DNA from: Leptolyngbya boryana PCC 6306
Lineage (GTDB): Bacteria; Cyanobacteriota; Cyanobacteriia; Leptolyngbyales; Leptolyngbyaceae
Assembly (NCBI RefSeq): GCF_000353285.1
Contig: NZ_KB731324.1
Span: forward strand, 2,312,577 to 2,376,576
Reading direction: 5' to 3'
Length of the DNA: 64,000 nucleotides
The notes beneath the pieces were generated by a model. That model was not told the DNA's origin, did no database searches, and was given only the letters and a program-made list of their open reading frames with translations. Both the position numbers and the translations under genes were made by a program. The number at the start of each line of letters is the position of its first letter. Positions within the stretch are counted from its first letter, which is position 1. Below are positions 8,810 to 17,811 of this stretch, in pieces.

Positions 8810-10450
8810 ATGTCGCCCTTATCTCAAGACACTTTTGCCCCTTTGAGTTCTCAAGATGACCTTGAGCTAGCCTTACTCCTATGCTGTGCCAGAACTCATC
8901 GCGATGCTACAACAGTGGCTCAGATTCATCAACTAGTACACCAGCCGATTCGATGGGAAAACCTCATTCCCCTAGCCGAGTGGCACAGTGTCCTGCCGCT
9001 GGTCTATCAAACCTTAAACACAGTCTGTCCAGAAAAGATTCCTCCTGAAATTTCTAAGCGGCTCCGGCAGTCCTTCTATGCAATCTCACTCAACAATCAA
9101 CTGTTGATACAAACGCTGCTTATCCTATTAAAACAATTTGAGGATGCAGAGATTCCCGTTCTCGCTTTCAAGGGTCCATTGTTGGCGATTTCGTACTACG
9201 GCGACTTGAATTTAAGGCAATTTAACGATCTCGATCTGCTTGTTGCTCGAAATGATTTTGAACGTGCTCAAACCTTATTGCGGGAAAAAAATTACCAGCC
9301 TTATCAAGTATTAGGGTGGCAAACGGCTTTCGCTCATTCATCAAGTGGAGTAGGAATTGATCTCCACCGTGCCCTAACTCCACCCTATTTCAAATTCGAT
9401 TTGCAGTTTGAAGAACTGCGATCTCGCCTTCAATCTTGTTCGTTCGACAATCAGCAGATCGCCTGTCTCTCCCCGATTGATATGTTGCTCATCCTCTGTG
9501 TGAGCTTTTGCCGCGATCGCCATGAACAAAAATCTCGGCTCATTCAACTGTGCGATATCGCTCAACTGATTCAAGCTTATCCCAATCTCGACTGGCATCA
9601 GGTTCTCAACCAATCTCGTCGATTCGGCATCCTACATATGGTTCTAGTGACACTAGCACTTGGACAGCAGCTTTTGCAGATTCCCTTACCGAAAATGATG
9701 CAAACTCAGATTCAACACAATTCAGCGATCGAGTCGTTGCTGCATCCACTTGCAACCAATCTACTTAAAACCAATTTACAGCCTCAGCTTCTACAGTTTG
9801 ATTCAGAAACATTCTGCTTGGATCACACTTTCTATTTGGCGCTCAGAGAACGCTGGTCGGATAAAATCCCTTACTTTCTGAATTATGCTGCGCTGCCCGT
9901 TGATCATCTGCAACGCATCCAGTTACCCAAAGCATTCGATCATCTATACTTAATTCGCCGAACAATTGGACCGAAGACTAATCTATTTCGGCTGAAAGTA
10001 TTGCTACACAGAGTAAAGCTTTTCTTGCGCCTTTCTCCACAAGACAGCATTCGTTTCATCTGTGCCTTAGCATTGTTTCCTTGCATCGCGATCGCACTAC
10101 AGCATTGGAATATTGCACAGATTCAAGGTGTTCTCACTCGCTTATGCCGACCGCTCTCTCCTGCATCACCAGTTCAAGTAGCGCGAACAGTCAGATTAGT
10201 CGAAATTGCAGCACGGCAATACAGTTCTCGCTGGGCAAATTGTCTGAAGCGATCGCTAGTGCTCTGGTATCTGCTGCGCTGTCAAGGAATTGCGAGTGAA
10301 CTCAGAATTGGGGTGCGCCGAGAGCAAGGGGAATTTCAAGCCCATGCTTGGGTGGAATGTCAGGGCAAAATCCTGAATGATATCCCCGATGTGCACCAAT
10401 CGTTTGCTGCCTTTGACTCGACACTTATGCATAAGCTCTCATCTGACTAA
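8810..10450 (+). CDS. Nucleotidyltransferase - lasso-type B2 leader peptidase fusion
   Basis: The first 400 or so residues are a nucleotidyltransferase-family domain (NTP_transf_5 type): FKGPLLAISYYGD followed by NDLDLLV is the expected Gly-rich segment and Asp-x-Asp metal site. The last 90 residues are a lasso peptide B2 protease (transglutaminase-like fold) with the catalytic Cys in NCLKRSLVLWYLL (about 477), His in AHAWVE (about 512) and an Asp in ILND. B2 cuts the leader off the precursor. The nucleotidyltransferase half could adenylylate the product or an intermediate, or could be a binding domain; that is inference. It opens the operon, 68 bases before the B1 gene. Such domains occur as separate genes in other lasso clusters, so the fusion is notable. 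Confidence 0.85.
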   Translation: MSPLSQDTFAPLSSQDDLELALLLCCARTHRDATTVAQIHQLVHQPIRWENLIPLAEWHSVLPLVYQTLNTVCPEKIPPEISKRLRQSFYAISLNNQLLIQTLLILLKQFEDAEIPVLAFKGPLLAISYYGDLNLRQFNDLDLLVARNDFERAQTLLREKNYQPYQVLGWQTAFAHSSSGVGIDLHRALTPPYFKFDLQFEELRSRLQSCSFDNQQIACLSPIDMLLILCVSFCRDRHEQKSRLIQLCDIAQLIQAYPNLDWHQVLNQSRRFGILHMVLVTLALGQQLLQIPLPKMMQTQIQHNSAIESLLHPLATNLLKTNLQPQLLQFDSETFCLDHTFYLALRERWSDKIPYFLNYAALPVDHLQRIQLPKAFDHLYLIRRTIGPKTNLFRLKVLLHRVKLFLRLSPQDSIRFICALALFPCIAIALQHWNIAQIQGVLTRLCRPLSPASPVQVARTVRLVEIAARQYSSRWANCLKRSLVLWYLLRCQGIASELRIGVRREQGEFQAHAWVECQGKILNDIPDVHQSFAAFDSTLMHKLSSD

Positions 10451-10518: not shown

Positions 10519-10836
10519 ATGCTTAAACATCCTCAAATCACCCTAACAGATTCACTTCTTAATCAGCAGAAATACCAGATTGCGGATGATGTACTCTATC
10601 GCCAAGTTGATACTGAAGCAATCCTGCTCAGCATTTCTGGTGGCGCTTACTATAGTTTGAATGAAACCAGTATTTACATCTGGGACGCGCTCAAAAATCA
10701 GCAGCCGCTCGCCTCTGCGGTAGACCGCATTCTGGATGAATACGACGTTGAGCGGACTCAAGTTCTCACGGATTTGCAACAAGTACTCCAAGACCTATCA
10801 GCTTATGGTCTGATTTCTCCCGTTAACCTAGAGTGA
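10519..10836 (+). CDS. PqqD-like RiPP recognition element (lasso B1)
   Basis: This 105-residue protein has the PqqD fold pattern: a strand pair (VLYRQVDTEAILLSISGGAYYSLNETS), then IYIWDALKNQQPLASAVDRILDEYDV, then the helix with VLTDLQQVLQDLSAYGLI. In lasso systems this B1 subunit binds the leader peptide and delivers it to the B2 protease. Its stop is three bases before the cyclase start, consistent with coupled translation. The family call is secure; the leader it binds is presumably that of the 53-residue peptide encoded downstream. Confidence 0.92.
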   Translation: MLKHPQITLTDSLLNQQKYQIADDVLYRQVDTEAILLSISGGAYYSLNETSIYIWDALKNQQPLASAVDRILDEYDVERTQVLTDLQQVLQDLSAYGLISPVNLE

Positions 10837-10839
10837 GCT

Positions 10840-12705
10840 ATGAGCGGAATTTTAGGAATCTGGAATAGCCAGCAGCCTAGCCCTTGGGAAGCAATGCTGA
10901 GCGATTTAACCGTGTTGGGAAGAGATGGACAAGGCAGTTGGCATGATCCATCGATTGGACTCAGTTTAGGGCGATCGCAGTTATTTAATACACCAGAATC
11001 TTGCTTAGAAGCACCTGTTGTTGAGCAAGATGGCTGTGTACTCGTTTGGGATGGGCGACTTGACGATCGAGAGACGTTACTCGCAGGGCGTACTCAAGTC
11101 CCAGATGCTCAATTGATTATTGAAAGCTATCGACGTTGGGGAGTGGATAGTCTGCGCCATCTCGTGGGTGAGTTTGTATTTATCCTTTGGGATGCGAGCC
11201 AAGACCTATTATTCGTCGGCTGTGATCCTGTCGGCAATCGTACGATCGCTTATGTCTGGGATGGCAATACTTTATTGCTTTGCTCACGGGTTTTGACTTT
11301 ATTGCTTCACCCGCAAGTGAGCCATGAATTTGATGAAGGTTACATGGCTCATACGATCTGCGATGCCTGGGCACATCCTGCCGAAATTACTCCATTTCAG
11401 GCAATTAAACGGCTCCGACCTGGATACGGCTTAATCCTCCAATCAGGACGACTTCAGCAGCGTCAACTTGCAAAATTAGCACCGACAAGCTACGACTTAC
11501 GGGACTCACCGGAAACCTACTTCGAGAAATTTTGGTATCTTCTCAATCAATCCGTTCGCGATCGCTTACGCAACTACCGTCCGGTATGTACGACCTTGAG
11601 CGGTGGGTTAGATTCTACAACGGTAACAGTTGCTCTCCTCAATCATCTTTCCAATCTTGAAGCATTCTCAGTCACTACAGAGCGTTATGCTGCAATTGAT
11701 GAAAGCGAACCCATTCAAGCATTTCTCGATCGATATTCCCAAGTCAAATGGCATTCCATTAACTGTGATGATGCTTGGGTATTGAGTGAACCGTGGGAAC
11801 AGTTACCGCTGCCTGATGATCCGTTTACGAGTTGTGTTGTACCAATGCATTTACGGATGATGCAAGAGGCTCAAAAATTGGGCTTTGGTCTGATATTTGA
11901 TGGCGAGTGGGGCGATGAGTTTTGCTATATATTCTGGCGCGATCGCATTCAAGTGGGAGACTGGCAATTTCTGTGGCAACAGCTTAGAAGCCCAGGAAAT
12001 CGTCGATCGTTTGTTTTGCAAGACCTCATTTTGCCCAATTGTCCAAAGCCCTGGCAAACTCAGTGGATGATGTCACGCCTGAAGCTCAGAAATCTTGCGC
12101 CGCAATGGATTCAATCCACCTATCTAGCACAGATACAACAGACTCAAGTTGCAGAACAGCTTGCGATGAAGTCTTTTGGATTAGATCGAGTTAAGGCTTT
12201 GAATCAAGAGATCGAAGATGCTAGTTTTGTTGGGACGATGCAAGTTCACCGATTGCTTCGATCTGCTCATCAATTAGAATATACTTCGCCACTACGCGAT
12301 CAGCGCGTAGTTGAATTTGCAAATCGGTTACATCCTTCGCTACAACTGGATTCAAACTATCAAAAAGTCTTTTTGCGCCATGCAAACCGAACAACTTTAC
12401 CAGATGCAGTTAGGTTACGTCCAAAAATCAACTACTTCGATCCATTGAAGTATGCTGGACTCGGTAGAGGAAGCCAAGCTCTTGAATTGCTAGAACAAGC
12501 AAAACAAAATTCCTATTTACAAGAAGCAATTGATTTCAAGCAGCTAGAGAATTCGCTCTTGTCCTATCGGCAGTCATACGAGCAAGATTATCGACCAGAC
12601 GAACCTTTCCACGATGGAATTGCGAATCAGTTGATCAGCACACTTGGATTAGCCAATTGGTTAACGCAGTTGGATAAAAAATATCTTGCTAGAAAGGTAA
12701 TCTAA
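10840..12705 (+). CDS. Asparagine-synthetase-like lasso cyclase (C protein)
   Basis: The 621-residue protein has the two halves of AsnB: an N-terminal glutaminase-like domain and a C-terminal ATP-pyrophosphatase domain with SGGLDSTT at about residue 254. The N-terminus reads MSGILG, so the catalytic Cys2 of true asparagine synthetases is Ser, as usual in lasso cyclases, which do not need glutamine. The expected reaction is ATP-dependent adenylylation of an Asp or Glu side chain of the core, followed by attack of the freed N-terminal amine to form a macrolactam. The place directly after B1 and before a methyltransferase supports this role. A generic asparagine synthetase is the alternative, but the context speaks against it. 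Confidence 0.9.
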   Translation: MSGILGIWNSQQPSPWEAMLSDLTVLGRDGQGSWHDPSIGLSLGRSQLFNTPESCLEAPVVEQDGCVLVWDGRLDDRETLLAGRTQVPDAQLIIESYRRWGVDSLRHLVGEFVFILWDASQDLLFVGCDPVGNRTIAYVWDGNTLLLCSRVLTLLLHPQVSHEFDEGYMAHTICDAWAHPAEITPFQAIKRLRPGYGLILQSGRLQQRQLAKLAPTSYDLRDSPETYFEKFWYLLNQSVRDRLRNYRPVCTTLSGGLDSTTVTVALLNHLSNLEAFSVTTERYAAIDESEPIQAFLDRYSQVKWHSINCDDAWVLSEPWEQLPLPDDPFTSCVVPMHLRMMQEAQKLGFGLIFDGEWGDEFCYIFWRDRIQVGDWQFLWQQLRSPGNRRSFVLQDLILPNCPKPWQTQWMMSRLKLRNLAPQWIQSTYLAQIQQTQVAEQLAMKSFGLDRVKALNQEIEDASFVGTMQVHRLLRSAHQLEYTSPLRDQRVVEFANRLHPSLQLDSNYQKVFLRHANRTTLPDAVRLRPKINYFDPLKYAGLGRGSQALELLEQAKQNSYLQEAIDFKQLENSLLSYRQSYEQDYRPDEPFHDGIANQLISTLGLANWLTQLDKKYLARKVI

Positions 12706-13478
12706 TGATGATTAAAATTCATAAGCAATCCTATCGTTATTTTTATCAATTGATTGACTTGCTCACGGCTTGTTTTGTTGGCTTCTGGTTAGGAGTGCTC
12801 GATCGCAATTCGATGTATCAAATTGATCAACAGTTTTACGATAGCGAAGCCATCTATCGAGATGAAGAATATAATCAAAGCGGTTTTTGGGAGTGGGAAT
12901 TCAAGGCGATTCAAACTCATTTTAAAACCTGTAAAACGATTCTGCTTGCAGGCGCAGGAGGAGGACGAGAAATCTTAGCCTTGCATGCCTTGGGATATGA
13001 AGTAGATGCATTTGAATGTAATCCTAATTTTGTCAAATTTGCAAATGAATTTCTTCAGGAAAAGCAGATCAATTGCACAGTTCAAATCGCGGTGAGAGAC
13101 ACTTGCCCGGTTTACGAAGAAATATACGACGGACTAATTGTTGGTTGGGGAGCTTATACCTTAATTCAAGGGCGGCAAACTCGGATTGATTTTCTAAAAC
13201 AAATGCGAGATCGTGTTAAGAGCGGATCGCCAATTCTCTTATCATTTCTGTACGCTTATAAGCCTGCAAAATATTACAAGATGATTAGTACGATCGCGAA
13301 TCTTATTCGAGCAATACGATGGCAATCTAAAACCGAAATCGGCGACTTTATACTTCCAGAAAACTTTGTCCATTACTTCTCGAAAGAACAGATTTCCTCC
13401 GAATTAAAGGAAGCAGGATTTAGACTTGAGTTCTATTCAGAACTCAACTACGGACATGCAGTCGGAATCGCCGAATGA
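12705..13478 (+). CDS. SAM-dependent methyltransferase of the RiPP operon
   Basis: The 257-residue protein carries motif I as ILLAGAGGGREILALHALG (about 79-97) and the acidic strand-2 end VDAFECN, followed by DGLIVGWGAYTLI at the motif IV position. Its start overlaps the cyclase stop as TAATG; a second ATG follows at once and either may be used. The hydrophobic N-terminal helix (LIDLLTACFVGFWLGVL) might contact the membrane. By position it is a tailoring enzyme for the peptide product, perhaps acting on a carboxyl or side chain; the target is not deducible. Confidence 0.82.
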   Translation: MMIKIHKQSYRYFYQLIDLLTACFVGFWLGVLDRNSMYQIDQQFYDSEAIYRDEEYNQSGFWEWEFKAIQTHFKTCKTILLAGAGGGREILALHALGYEVDAFECNPNFVKFANEFLQEKQINCTVQIAVRDTCPVYEEIYDGLIVGWGAYTLIQGRQTRIDFLKQMRDRVKSGSPILLSFLYAYKPAKYYKMISTIANLIRAIRWQSKTEIGDFILPENFVHYFSKEQISSELKEAGFRLEFYSELNYGHAVGIAE

Positions 13479-13666: not shown

Positions 13667-13673
13667 AAGGAGG
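13667..13673 (+). promoter_or_regulatory. Strong ribosome binding site of the precursor gene
   Basis: AAGGAGG stands nine bases before the ATG of the 53-residue peptide. It is a near-perfect match to the anti-Shine-Dalgarno sequence. Together with the AT-rich 200-base leader before it, this suggests that the precursor is made at higher levels than the enzymes. It also decides the start: the in-frame codons further upstream have no such signal. Confidence 0.85.
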
Positions 13674-13682
13674 TCAATCACA

Positions 13683-13844
13683 ATGAAGAAGACATACCTA
13701 TCGATGCAGGTTTCGCAACTAGGAAGTCTTGCAGAACTGACTCAACAAGCGCAAGGGAATCCTAAATCAGGTCCATTTCAAGATGGAATTAACATGAGAG
13801 TCACCAATCCAGGTGGTTTTGATGGCAGCGAAAATATGCGCTAA
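13683..13844 (+). CDS. Lasso-type RiPP precursor peptide with two putative tandem cores
   Basis: The 53-residue peptide starts MKKTYLSMQVSQLGS. The spacing Y5, M8, V10, G14 matches the lasso leader pattern Y-x2-P-x-L-x3-G with M for P and V for L, and LT at 19-20 follows as in lasso leaders. The rest holds two similar blocks: residues 26-39 (NPKSGPFQDGINMR) and 42-53 (NPGGFDGSENMR), joined by VT. Each block starts NP, ends NMR, has one Ser and one Arg, and has an acidic residue at its position 9 (D34, E50). That fits a nine-membered macrolactam in each. The usual Thr at -2 before the core is absent for both, so the exact cut sites are open. It lies between the methyltransferase and kinase genes of the operon. 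Confidence 0.8.
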   Translation: MKKTYLSMQVSQLGSLAELTQQAQGNPKSGPFQDGINMRVTNPGGFDGSENMR

Positions 13845-13939
13845 ACATCGATGTGAAGAGCATTGTTACAGTTTGCACACTTAGTAAGTAAAATTTGCTC
13901 AGTTCAGCAACTTAACAGGTGCTCAGATCATTCATCAAG

Positions 13940-13966
13940 GGAGCATTCCAGTTGACGGAATGCTCC
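13940..13966 (+). terminator. Hairpin after the precursor gene
   Basis: GGAGCATTCC pairs perfectly with GGAATGCTCC across a seven-base loop, some 95 bases after the precursor stop and 24 bases before the kinase gene. There is no strong T-run after it. It may be a partial terminator or an mRNA-stabilising end that raises precursor transcript over that of the downstream genes. Confidence 0.6.
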
Positions 13967-13990
13967 TAGCAAGTTTATCAAGATTGACCC

Positions 13991-14872
13991 ATGAAATTTC
14001 AGAGCATTCTGCAGGCTGCTACCGACGAACTCAGACATATCTCAAACACTCAACTAACCTTAGAGTTAGTTACCGAACTTCCCTTAAACTCAGGAGCAGG
14101 CTCTATATATAAGAATAGCTCTGCACAAAATACTTCACATCATTACTGGATTCCTTGGACAGAAGAGATGGGTGCATGGATTGATGCCAATGGTCATCAT
14201 GCAATCCTTGTCGTGGTTGAATCAGCCCCAATCGAGAACATTCAAGGCTCTCCCGTATTGTGTTTTGCTGCTCATATTGCTGCTACTTGTTTAGGGTTAC
14301 AGGGACAAATCGCACTTCATGCAAATGTTGTCGCTTTAGATGGAGTCGCGATCGCGTTTGCAGGATGTTCTGGAAAGGGGAAATCGACCTTAACTACATA
14401 TTGTGTAAGCCGTGGTGCAAGCTTTGTCACCGATGATGTTTTAGTCGTCAATGACCAAGGGCAAGTTCGCCCTGGAAGTCCTCGGATTAAGCTGTTTCCT
14501 CATACGGGAGAAAGCTTTGGATTAGACGCTTCCGAAACAACAACCTACAAAATTCATTATGCAATAGAACAATTGGGGATAACTCCTCAGAACCAATCTT
14601 TCCCATTGGGTACCATTTACCTACTCGAAGAAAGCGATCGCATCTATATTGAGCAGCTTTCACCCAGCCAAGCCCTGCTCGATCTGCTGATTCATAGCTA
14701 TCACGTGACCGAAATCATGCCCGATCAGCCGAGCTTGTTTTATGCCTACACCAATTTAGTGGCACAAGTCCCCGTCAAAAAACTGTTCTACCCACGATCA
14801 TTCGAGAGCCTACCCAAGCTCTACGACTTCTTGCAAACCGAAACGCATTCTTTTACTCCTCAACTTCTATGA
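13991..14872 (+). CDS. HPr-kinase-like kinase of the RiPP operon
   Basis: The 293-residue protein has the HPr kinase P-loop AGCSGKGKST at about 126-135, followed by SFVTDDVLVV with the paired Asp that act in metal binding and catalysis in HprK. Homologues in Firmicute and proteobacterial lasso clusters (paeninodin type) phosphorylate a Ser of the peptide. Here each putative core has one Ser (29 and 49), but the C-terminal residue is Arg rather than Ser, so the target would be internal. It overlaps the next gene by four bases (ATGA). Confidence 0.85.
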   Translation: MKFQSILQAATDELRHISNTQLTLELVTELPLNSGAGSIYKNSSAQNTSHHYWIPWTEEMGAWIDANGHHAILVVVESAPIENIQGSPVLCFAAHIAATCLGLQGQIALHANVVALDGVAIAFAGCSGKGKSTLTTYCVSRGASFVTDDVLVVNDQGQVRPGSPRIKLFPHTGESFGLDASETTTYKIHYAIEQLGITPQNQSFPLGTIYLLEESDRIYIEQLSPSQALLDLLIHSYHVTEIMPDQPSLFYAYTNLVAQVPVKKLFYPRSFESLPKLYDFLQTETHSFTPQLL

Positions 14873-15990
14873 GCTATCTTCTTCTACAGGGGCAGCAGGT
14901 GATGACCCTTGATGCTAGACGCAATGCAGCTTATCTTCAGGCGATGCAAGCAGTCATCACCCCAGACAGTGTGGTGCTAGATTTAGGAGCAGGTCTAGGA
15001 ATTTTTGGACTGCTGGCAGCTCAACTGGGCGCAAAACGAGTTTACATGGTCGAGCCAGAAGACATTATCAGCTTGACACAGCAGATTGTGAAAGCGAATG
15101 GATACAGCGATCGCATTCAGTGTTTACAAGGCAAAATCGAAGAAGTGACGATCCCTGAGCCTGTTGATGTGATTATTTCAGTCTTTACAGGGAACTTTTT
15201 ACTCTCAGAAGATCTCCTACCTTCGCTATTCTACGCCCGCGATCGCTACCTTAAGCCAAGTGGCGTGCTCATTCCCTCAGCGGCAGTCATGGAGACGGTT
15301 CCTGCCTCTGTCCCCGCTTTCTATGAACGAGAGATTGCAGTGTGGTCAAATCCACATCTGAATTTAGATCATAGTCCAGTTCGTTCCTATGTGAGCCAAG
15401 CTATGTTCTTTGCACGTCAAGACCTTGGACAGGCTCAATATCTGGCAGAACCCGAAAAAGTCATGGCATTAGATTTCTATCAAGCCACTGATACGAATTG
15501 TCGTGCAGAGATACACCATACCATCACTCAAGCAGGCATCTGTCACGGTTGGATCGGTTGGTTCAAAATGCTACTTGGAGATCAGTGGCTTTCGACTGCG
15601 CCGCACGAACCTCCGCTCCACTGGTCATCTGCATTCATGCCGATCGATCCACCTGTTGCTTTTGAAGTAGGTGAGACTGTTACTTTCAAATTACAACGCC
15701 CGCCTTATGGGGACTGGATTTGGCAATTTAAGAGCCAGCAGACACAGCAACAGCGATCGACATTCTTCTCTGTGCCCAACACCCTAAAAACCCTGCAAAA
15801 GATGGCTCCTGCTTATCAGCCTAATCTAAATACCAAAGGCAAAGCCGTGCATTATATTTTGGCTCATGCCGATGGAACTCACTCTGTACAAGAACTCGCA
15901 CAGCAACTCGTTTCGCTGTTTCCAGATACATTTGCGACAGATCAGAAAGCCACAAAATTTATTCAAACGCTCGTCAGTTGGTTGGCATAA
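14869..15990 (+). CDS. PRMT-like methyltransferase with C-terminal PqqD-like domain
   Basis: Residues 35-190 resemble protein arginine methyltransferases: motif I VVLDLGAGLGIFGLLAAQLGAKRVYMVEPED, then PEPVDVIISVFTGNFLLSEDLLPSLFYARDRYLKPSGVLIPS, where eukaryotic PRMTs have the double-E loop and the DRYLKPGG-like stretch. A middle beta-rich part fits the PRMT barrel. The last 60 residues (LNTKGKAVHYILAHADGTHSVQELAQQL, then ATKFIQTLVSWL) have the PqqD/RRE pattern, which would let the enzyme bind the leader itself. Methylation of Arg39 and Arg53 of the precursor is the obvious hypothesis. The two acidic residues of the PRMT double-E loop are only partly conserved, so another target is possible. 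Confidence 0.75.
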   Translation: MSYLLLQGQQVMTLDARRNAAYLQAMQAVITPDSVVLDLGAGLGIFGLLAAQLGAKRVYMVEPEDIISLTQQIVKANGYSDRIQCLQGKIEEVTIPEPVDVIISVFTGNFLLSEDLLPSLFYARDRYLKPSGVLIPSAAVMETVPASVPAFYEREIAVWSNPHLNLDHSPVRSYVSQAMFFARQDLGQAQYLAEPEKVMALDFYQATDTNCRAEIHHTITQAGICHGWIGWFKMLLGDQWLSTAPHEPPLHWSSAFMPIDPPVAFEVGETVTFKLQRPPYGDWIWQFKSQQTQQQRSTFFSVPNTLKTLQKMAPAYQPNLNTKGKAVHYILAHADGTHSVQELAQQLVSLFPDTFATDQKATKFIQTLVSWLA

Positions 15991-15993
15991 CGA

Positions 15994-17811
15994 ATGTTGT
16001 CTCTCCGTTATTTGATTCGCAAACTTCAGGGTGCAAGCCATTTGCTTCCTGCACTGCGCTTTGTCTGGAAAGGTTCGCCGCGATGGACTTTAGCCCATGT
16101 GACGCTAATTTTCATTCAAGGGCTTTTGCCGATCGCATTACTCTATCTAACCAAACTCATTATTGATATCGTTACAAGTAGTATTGCGCTGCCTGATAAA
16201 ACATTGCTGTTTCAGCGTTTACTTGTCTTACTTGGATTGATGGGTGCTGTTACCGTCATCGCTGCGATTCTCGCTGCTTTAGCCGAACTAGTTAACAGTG
16301 CCCAGACTCAGCAAGTCACTGATTATATGCAAGGCATTGTTCATGCCAAGTCACTAGAAATTGACCTAGAATACTACGAAAATCCAGACTATCACAATAG
16401 CCTACAACGTGCTCAACAAGAAGCTTTTTACCGTCCTAATCAAATCTTGGAGCACTTGATCCAGCTTGGTCAAACAATGATCACGTTAGTGCTGATGGTC
16501 GGCTTACTCGTTGCGCTACATTGGGGAATTGCAGGCATTCTCTTTGCGGCTTCGGTTCCATCCATTCTCGTTCGTTTGAAGTACGCCTCTATCCTACATG
16601 CTTGGCAACGTCGTCGAACTGAGATGCAGCGACAAGGAGAATACTTAAGCTGGTTACTCACAGGGGATTGGTTTGCAAAAGAGCTACGCCTCTTCGATCT
16701 CGGCAACCTTTTTAGTCAACGCTTTCAGCGGATTCGCAAGCAGTTGTATCAAGAAACTTTGCAGATTGGAACTCAGCGCGCGATCGCGAATGTTCTCGCC
16801 CAAAGCCTCTCTGCTCTGCTCCTTTTTTCTGCTTACAGTTTTGTGGTCTATCAAGCGTTTCAGGGTCAACTACAAATCGGAGATTTAGTCCTTTACCATG
16901 CTGCACTCCAACAAGGACAAGCTGCTTTGAAAGGGTTACTTGGAAGTTTGTCTGCACTCTACGAAGACAATCTCTTCCTGAGCAATCTTTATGAATTTCT
17001 AGAACTCCAGCCAAAAATCGCCGCACCCCTTCATCCTAAACCACTCCCTCGACCGATGCGATCGGGGATTGTATTCGATCGCGTGAGCTTTCAATATAGC
17101 AATACGCCCCGTTGGGCATTGAAAGACGTTAGCCTGACAATTCGCCCTGGTGAGGTCATTGCTCTCGTCGGCGAAAATGGTTCTGGAAAAACAACTCTGA
17201 TTAAACTGCTCTGTCGGCTATATGAACCTACACAAGGCAAGATTACCCTCGATGGCGTTGCCTTAGAGCAATATGATCTCGTAGACTTGCGCCGACAGAT
17301 TAGTGTAGTTTTTCAGGACTATGTGAAGTACTATTTCACAGCTTGGGAAAACATTTGGTTCGGCAATATCGAACTTCCACCTGGGGCAGAAACGGTGATG
17401 CAAGCTGCTAAACAATCGGGAGCCGATGCGGTGATTCAAACATTACCCCAAGGCTATGACACGATGCTCGGAAAATTATTTGAACAAGGCGAAGAGTTAA
17501 GCATTGGACAATGGCAAAAAGTTGCGCTGGCGAGAGCGTTTTTGCGCCAGTCCCAGTTAGTTGTCTTAGATGAGCCGACCAGTGCAATGGATCCGAAAGC
17601 AGAATATGAAGTTTTTCAGCAGTTTCGGCAACTGATTCAGAATCAATCTGCCATTTTGATTAGCCATCGATTATCTACGGTTAAGATGGCTGACCGAATT
17701 TATGTCGTCGATCGTGGAACGATCGTGGAACAAGGCACGCATACTGAATTAATGCAGTTAAACGGCAGATATGCTCATTTATTTGAAACTCAGGCTCAGA
17801 ACTATCGCTAG
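15994..17811 (+). CDS. ABC exporter of the RiPP operon (lasso D type)
   Basis: The 605-residue half-transporter has an N-terminal membrane domain with about six segments and a C-terminal ATPase: Walker A GENGSGKTT (about 394), signature LSIGQWQK (about 503), Walker B LVVLDEPTSAMD and the H-loop ISHRLST. There is no C39 peptidase domain at the N-terminus, in line with leader removal by the B2 protease. In lasso systems the D protein exports the mature peptide and gives self-immunity. It starts three bases after the PRMT-like gene and closes the operon. Confidence 0.92.
   Translation: MLSLRYLIRKLQGASHLLPALRFVWKGSPRWTLAHVTLIFIQGLLPIALLYLTKLIIDIVTSSIALPDKTLLFQRLLVLLGLMGAVTVIAAILAALAELVNSAQTQQVTDYMQGIVHAKSLEIDLEYYENPDYHNSLQRAQQEAFYRPNQILEHLIQLGQTMITLVLMVGLLVALHWGIAGILFAASVPSILVRLKYASILHAWQRRRTEMQRQGEYLSWLLTGDWFAKELRLFDLGNLFSQRFQRIRKQLYQETLQIGTQRAIANVLAQSLSALLLFSAYSFVVYQAFQGQLQIGDLVLYHAALQQGQAALKGLLGSLSALYEDNLFLSNLYEFLELQPKIAAPLHPKPLPRPMRSGIVFDRVSFQYSNTPRWALKDVSLTIRPGEVIALVGENGSGKTTLIKLLCRLYEPTQGKITLDGVALEQYDLVDLRRQISVVFQDYVKYYFTAWENIWFGNIELPPGAETVMQAAKQSGADAVIQTLPQGYDTMLGKLFEQGEELSIGQWQKVALARAFLRQSQLVVLDEPTSAMDPKAEYEVFQQFRQLIQNQSAILISHRLSTVKMADRIYVVDRGTIVEQGTHTELMQLNGRYAHLFETQAQNYR

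Follow-up and report, generated by a model that had tools for sequence, protein, structure and literature searches.

Lasso peptide enzymes are thought to need a threonine at position −2 and an acidic residue at positions 7–9. The closest described systems are the cyanobacterial lasso peptides (NF033528, NF033535) and the lasso peptides associated with an HprK-type kinase, namely paeninodin (kinase PadeK, PMC9266682) and BsfA (kinase BsfK, PMC10368454). According to PMC9266682, the paeninodin kinase targets the C-terminal Ser. In PMC10368454, BsfA is phosphorylated at Ser3, five residues before the ring Asp8, and has Ile at −2, indicating that the −2 residue can vary. Metanodin, as described in PMC12670498, uses Asn as ring residue 1 and has Thr at −2.

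The locus described here lies in the window, a 64,000-nucleotide stretch of Leptolyngbya boryana PCC 6306 DNA. It shares with the cyanobacterial lasso peptides the leader pattern, the B2, B1 and C enzymes and the exporter, and the original prediction of a lasso-type operon and precursor was supported, as B2, B1/PqqD, C, kinase, PRMT-like methyltransferase and exporter genes were all found. It differs from those peptides in the scores of its precursor (P0001; 13.1 bits with NF033528 lasso_cyano, E 0.069, cut-off 33) and its cyclase (219.6 bits with NF033535, cut-off 525), and in having the first acid at position 13. All operon genes are open and are arranged in the following order:

8810–10450, + strand: NTP_transf_5 domain fused to the lasso B2 peptidase (Pfam NTP_transf_5 and Transglut_core3; NF033537, 80.6 bits, cut-off 33)
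10519–10836, + strand: B1, PqqD/RRE (PqqD, 62.7 bits, cut-off 23.4)
10840–12705, + strand: C, asparagine-synthase-like macrolactam cyclase (SGGLDST intact; below the NF033535 cut-off)
12705–13478, + strand: MT1, SAM methyltransferase, lying between C and the precursor
13683–13844, + strand: precursor A, 53 aa (open reading frame with AAGGAGGTC upstream and a leader common to six relatives)
13939–13967, + strand: 11-bp hairpin between the precursor and the kinase gene (spacer folding)
13991–14872, + strand: HprK-like kinase (profile matches all below curated cut-offs; H110, K131, D148 and D149 conserved in an alignment of seven)
14869–15990, + strand: PRMT-like methyltransferase with a C-terminal extension (PRMT_C, 44.4 bits, cut-off 27)
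15994–17811, + strand: ABC exporter (Pfam; no peptidase domain among the Pfam hits)

Relatives of this operon were drawn from overlapping searches of 386, 42, 386, 217, 388, 38 and 57 genomes. The cyclase matched in 2 of 42, 3 of 386, 6 of 217 (three close and three distant), 6 of 388, 1 of 38 and 1 of 57 genomes, counts that include the window's own genome and overlaps between searches. A scan of genome contigs with the C protein found nothing, a contig scan with the PRMT alignment gave one locus, and plasmids contained no C relative at E ≤ 1e-60. Six relatives with a precursor were retained (G185, G091, G475, G577, G648 and G722), with C proteins 44–54% identical to that of the window. G185 belongs to the same family as the window organism, and the tree of C grouped the two weakly (support 0.59). 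Three distant cyclases (G576, G596 and G489; 24–26%) served as outgroup and in the survey only. G660 (C 42% identical) was left out of the six; it is an orphan cyclase (L056 7620–9398) whose SGGLDS motif has become SGGLAS, and the 17 kb fetched around it yielded neither a precursor nor a partner gene.

In tblastn searches, B1, C, the kinase and the ABC exporter were present in all six relatives, B2 in five (not G577), the PRMT-like methyltransferase in five (not G091), and the NTase in three, as far as the fetched DNA extended. MT1 was seen in none of the six. The gene table used matches >40 bits (or to A); a second search at E ≤ 1 gave the same outcome for MT1, for B2 in G577 and for the PRMT in G091. 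With tblastn at E ≤ 1, MT1 likewise matched nothing in any of 10 related loci, nor was it found at E ≤ 1e-10 when 41 further genomes from the order were searched; its own weak matches were to TehB and to daptide methyltransferases. The NTP_transf_5 and B2 domains, one fused gene in the window, are separate open reading frames in G185, G648 and G722. In G475, the PRMT gene is shortened and is separated from the ABC gene by an open reading frame (L047 10623–12089) that we presume to be an IS66-type transposase.

Across six aligned B2 proteins, including that of the window, a Cys, a His (AHAW) and an Asp (NDxP) are conserved, which we take to be the catalytic residues. The window B2 is accompanied by a B1/PqqD-like RRE and a cyclase with SGGLDS, the components of a lasso operon. 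Similar to the kinase-associated systems in PMC9266682 and PMC10368454, the window kinase adjoins the precursor and retains the His-Lys-Asp-Asp residues. Compared with what the same sources describe for paeninodin and BsfA, the window encodes an additional PRMT-like methyltransferase, and its precursor, unlike paeninodin, has no C-terminal Ser. A PRMT-like methyltransferase sits inside a lasso operon here as in most of the relatives. Its C-terminal extension is possibly RRE-like, judging from a weak PqqD match (E 0.0018), and the hhalign comparison of this C-terminus with B1 was negative and did not support an RRE.

The 146-nt spacer holding the hairpin folds strongly (−44.8 kcal/mol, z −4.00). 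The hairpin has no T run and was not called as a terminator; a partial terminator or an mRNA stabiliser is possible. The window shares strong folding after the precursor with G577, G648 and G722 (z −4.0 to −4.8). As a conserved element the hairpin was rejected, given the weak folding in G185 (−1.60) and G091 (−1.18); G475 was left out of the folding.

Precursor A reads MKKTYLSMQVSQLGSLAELTQQAQGNPKSGPFQDGINMRVTNPGGFDGSENMR followed by a stop, 53 aa translated from 13683–13844 (+), with AAGGAGGTC at 13667–13675 providing a good ribosome-binding site; no frameshift was found. Searches with the precursor gave no match in Pfam (E ≤ 0.01) or PHROGs (E ≤ 1) and 13.2 bits with lasso_leader_L3 (NCBIfam; cut-off 19). 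As a query against 386 genomes at E ≤ 0.1, the precursor recovered, apart from itself, only G185. It was divided as follows, with the last three boundaries proposed from comparison with the relatives:

13683–13745, + strand: leader, residues 1–21 (Y5, M8, V10, G14, T20), in which the Y5–T20 spacing fits −17/−2
13746–13757, + strand: QAQG, residues 22–25, surplus in comparison with six relatives and separating N26 from the canonical cut
13758–13784, + strand: proposed ring N26–D34 (NPKSGPFQD), placed by alignment to G185 N1–D9
13785–13841, + strand: proposed tail, residues 35–53, holding block 2 (13806–13841) and PGG, with PGG/PAGG in the relatives' tails

Of the YxxPxL leader motif, the window (Y5xxM8xV10) keeps the Tyr, with M where P is expected and V where L is expected; the six relatives carry M or I in the former place and V or I in the latter. 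Leader numbering follows the −17/−2 convention in PMC10368454, by which T20, 15 residues after Y5, occupies −2. The original prediction that a Thr at −2 was missing was therefore incorrect, and the real difference is that no Asp or Glu stands at positions 7–9 after T20. Counted from T20, the core begins QAQGNPKSGPFQD, and since QAQG lies between the canonical cut and N26, the first acid falls at position 13. Counted from N26, an acid does stand at position 9 with Gln at −2, and neither N26 nor G25 has Thr at −2, so the combination of Thr −2 with Asp/Glu at 7–9 is lacking. It is this displaced cleavage signal that is the true peculiarity of the window precursor. The six relatives are regular, each having one core, Thr at −2, a ring acid at D8 (four) or D9 (two) and a tail of 14–26 residues. 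Following T-x, their cores are:

G185: ring NMNVGRYTD, tail of 20 residues
G091: ring GNGGYLCD, tail of 19 residues
G475: ring GGTGSRGD, tail of 25 residues
G577: ring GMSGNYPD, tail of 26 residues
G648: ring AMNTGAYGD, tail of 15 residues
G722: ring GMFALYND, tail of 14 residues

The G091 precursor (L041 9603–9803) has one Cys at ring position 7 and another adjoining the C-terminus, and a disulfide is possible.

The acid position was also surveyed in 50 leader-bearing cyanobacterial precursors, including the window, selected by regular expression. In this set, whose loci came mainly from the NF033528 and C searches and which therefore favors that family, as well as the leader spacing used for selection, the acid stood at 7–9 in 37 precursors and at 10 in three, and ten had none at 7–10. 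These ten were eight members of the G[LF]T[QE]/xVGGSxGF group (slash, cut), L070 and the window, and only the window had its first acid at position 13. The precursors with an xVGGSxGF core (L017, L021, L022, L025 and L036) have a lasso-like leader and often occur in pairs. Arrays of separate lasso-like precursor genes were also observed, five in L059 and three each in L058, L060, L061 and L066; where the surveyed cyanobacteria make several products, these apparently come from separate genes.

A canonical cut between T20-Q21 and Q22, with C forming a 13-residue ring from Q22 to D34, would suit the −17/−2 spacing of T20. We consider it unlikely in light of the survey, which has an acid at 7–9 or 10 in most precursors and a first acid at 13 in the window alone, and of PMC13352647, where ring changes of a single residue already lower the yield. 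By the same canonical count, position 8 is Ser29, and MAFFT sets the ring acid of the relatives at or beside S29, not D34. The precursor may accordingly no longer form a macrolactam at all, the gene drifting or encoding another RiPP, as could be imagined from the eight of 50 precursors of the xVGGSxGF group that have the same leader type and no acid at 7–10. Weighed against the open genes of the operon, the intact motifs of B2, kinase and C, and a precursor gene with an unbroken frame and a good ribosome-binding site, this loss is unlikely.

Residues 26–39 (NPKSGPFQDGINMR, block 1) and 42–53 (NPGGFDGSENMR, block 2) share the pattern NP..GF.DG..NMR. The translated open reading frame bears out the description that each block starts with NP and ends with NMR, with an acid at position 9 from the Asn (D34 and E50), and the codons do differ between blocks. 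Block 2 additionally has D47 at its position 6, a residue absent from the original description, and it is D47, not E50, that aligns with D34. For residues 22–53, the observed self-similarity was reached by 31 of 1000 shuffles at gap 11/1, 2 at 6/1 and 0 at 4/1; for the whole frame the counts were 67, 6 and 3 of 1000, and a repeat of the shuffle test gave 19 of 1000 (11/1) and 0 of 1000 (6/1). Among the 50 surveyed cores the window ranked first at gap 6/1 (0/300), and at gap 11/1 L025 (1/300) stood above it (3/300), with p ≤ 0.03 in three of the 50. None of the six relatives showed significant internal similarity, the lowest count being 225 of 1000 (G091). Because of the shuffle counts and the rank among the 50 cores, the similarity between blocks is more than a chance impression, although it is only modestly above chance.

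The original prediction took this repeat as two tandem cores. On such a reading, N26–R39 would close on D34, the other core would begin at N42 (with E50) or at V40 (with D47), and the two would be cut apart into small macrolactams. The repeat is specific to the window, block 2 doubled scores above the natural core (see below), and by eye FDGSENMR of block 2 resembles the relatives' YPDGNSGM and YNDGDSGM around the ring acid. The homologue check that the prediction had proposed nevertheless went largely the other way, as all six relatives with a findable precursor are single-core, and the match of block 2 is somewhat closer to their tails than to their rings. Neither N42 (with T41 at −1) nor V40 is preceded by a second leader or a Thr at −2, so that, of the hallmarks of a multi-core RiPP, the window shows the repeat only. 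The tails would measure 5 and 3 to 6 residues, below those of every relative, the exporter lacks a peptidase domain, and no tandem-core lasso precursor was found in the open-access literature searched. Two cores are thus improbable. We give even less weight to a history in which the precursor gene of one cyanobacterial lineage went from one core to two by intragenic duplication, with displaced B2 recognition, with MT1 as a methyltransferase that related operons lack and with one leader feeding two macrolactams; this is very unlikely.

With moderate confidence, we favor one core from about N26 (or G25) to R53, with a ring closed on D34, a 19-residue tail that includes block 2, and a displaced cut. 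Aligned at full length as one core, residues 26–53 matched G185 (score 36, p 0.002) and G577 (score 44, p 0.015; 2000 shuffles each), p-values that, like those below, span several relatives and gap settings without multiple-testing correction. With QAQG added to the core, p was 0.01 (G185), 0.022 (G577) and 0.04 (G091). At each of the four gap settings D34 lay opposite the ring acid in G185, G091 and G577, and at the loosest it did so in all six relatives. Window PGG aligned with the tail PGG of G185 and G091 and with PAGG of G577, and the tail counted from D34 is within the range of the relatives. The earlier assignment of Asn26 as residue 1 and Asp34 as residue 9 is plausible: for G185 (TQ/NMNVGRYTD), every one of the four gap settings puts N1 on N26 and D9 on D34, and metanodin (PMC12670498) shares Asn1 with the proposed N26, with Thr at −2 where the window has it at −6. 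It is less secure in that the first core residue aligns with G25 for G091 and with P27 or G25 for G577.

Summed over six relatives, the alignment score was reached by 20 of 2000 shuffles of the whole core, 85 of 2000 of the tail only and 52 of 2000 of the ring only. Block 2 was matched by 119 of 2000 shuffles against the relatives' tails and 308 of 2000 against their rings, neither below 0.05; block 1 by 284 of 2000 against rings (not significant) and 1626 of 2000 against tails. The one-core alignment would place block 2 on the tails of two of the six relatives (G185 and G577), a fragile placement.

Several results count against a single core. Four of the six relatives gave no significant alignment (p 0.11 for G091, 0.53 for G475, 0.66 for G648 and 0.83 for G722), and the alignment position of G475, G648 and G722 shifted with the gap penalty. 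To these are added the MAFFT placement at or beside S29, the lack of a Thr two residues before N26 or G25, the non-significant match of block 1 to rings and the preference of block 2 for the ring of G091 (p 0.03) over its tail (p 0.23). Summed scores were 168 for the natural block order, 127 for swapped blocks, 118 for block 1 doubled and 181 for block 2 doubled. This last score speaks against a pure tail reading, but we give more weight to the fact that all six regular relatives have one core, that the tail length lies within their range and that no second cut signal is present. The unusually strong internal repeat is not explained by a pure tail reading.

For the window product of such a single core, we infer the cut site, ring, threading and decorations as follows. 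B1 would bind the YxxM(P)xV(L) leader and B2 would remove it, either by a later-than-usual cut or with a second trimming step, because about four extra residues (QAQG) follow the canonical TQ. C would then close a macrolactam of 9 (or 10) residues by joining the freed N-terminus to the D34 side chain, and the 19-residue tail, containing the second NP...NMR block, may thread through it. The non-threaded product of the original prediction started from tails of 5 and 3 residues, shorter than the one expected from a single core. The kinase and the methyltransferases may modify the product, and the ABC protein would export it. If D34 closes the ring, S29, five residues before it, would match Ser3 of BsfA as given in PMC10368454. 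A Ser or Thr occupies a like place in G475, G577 and G648, for four of seven precursors with the window included, and because it is missing in G185, G091 and G722, S29 as a kinase site is a lead rather than a result. No shifted cut like the one proposed here was found in the open-access literature searched.

These data suggest that the precursor encodes one peptide with a ring-like tail and that its usual cutting signal stands about four residues too early. The window is a case in which an internal repeat can pass for a second core. With an intact operon whose precursor breaks the spacing rule and six regular relatives beside it, the cut-site rule becomes directly testable.
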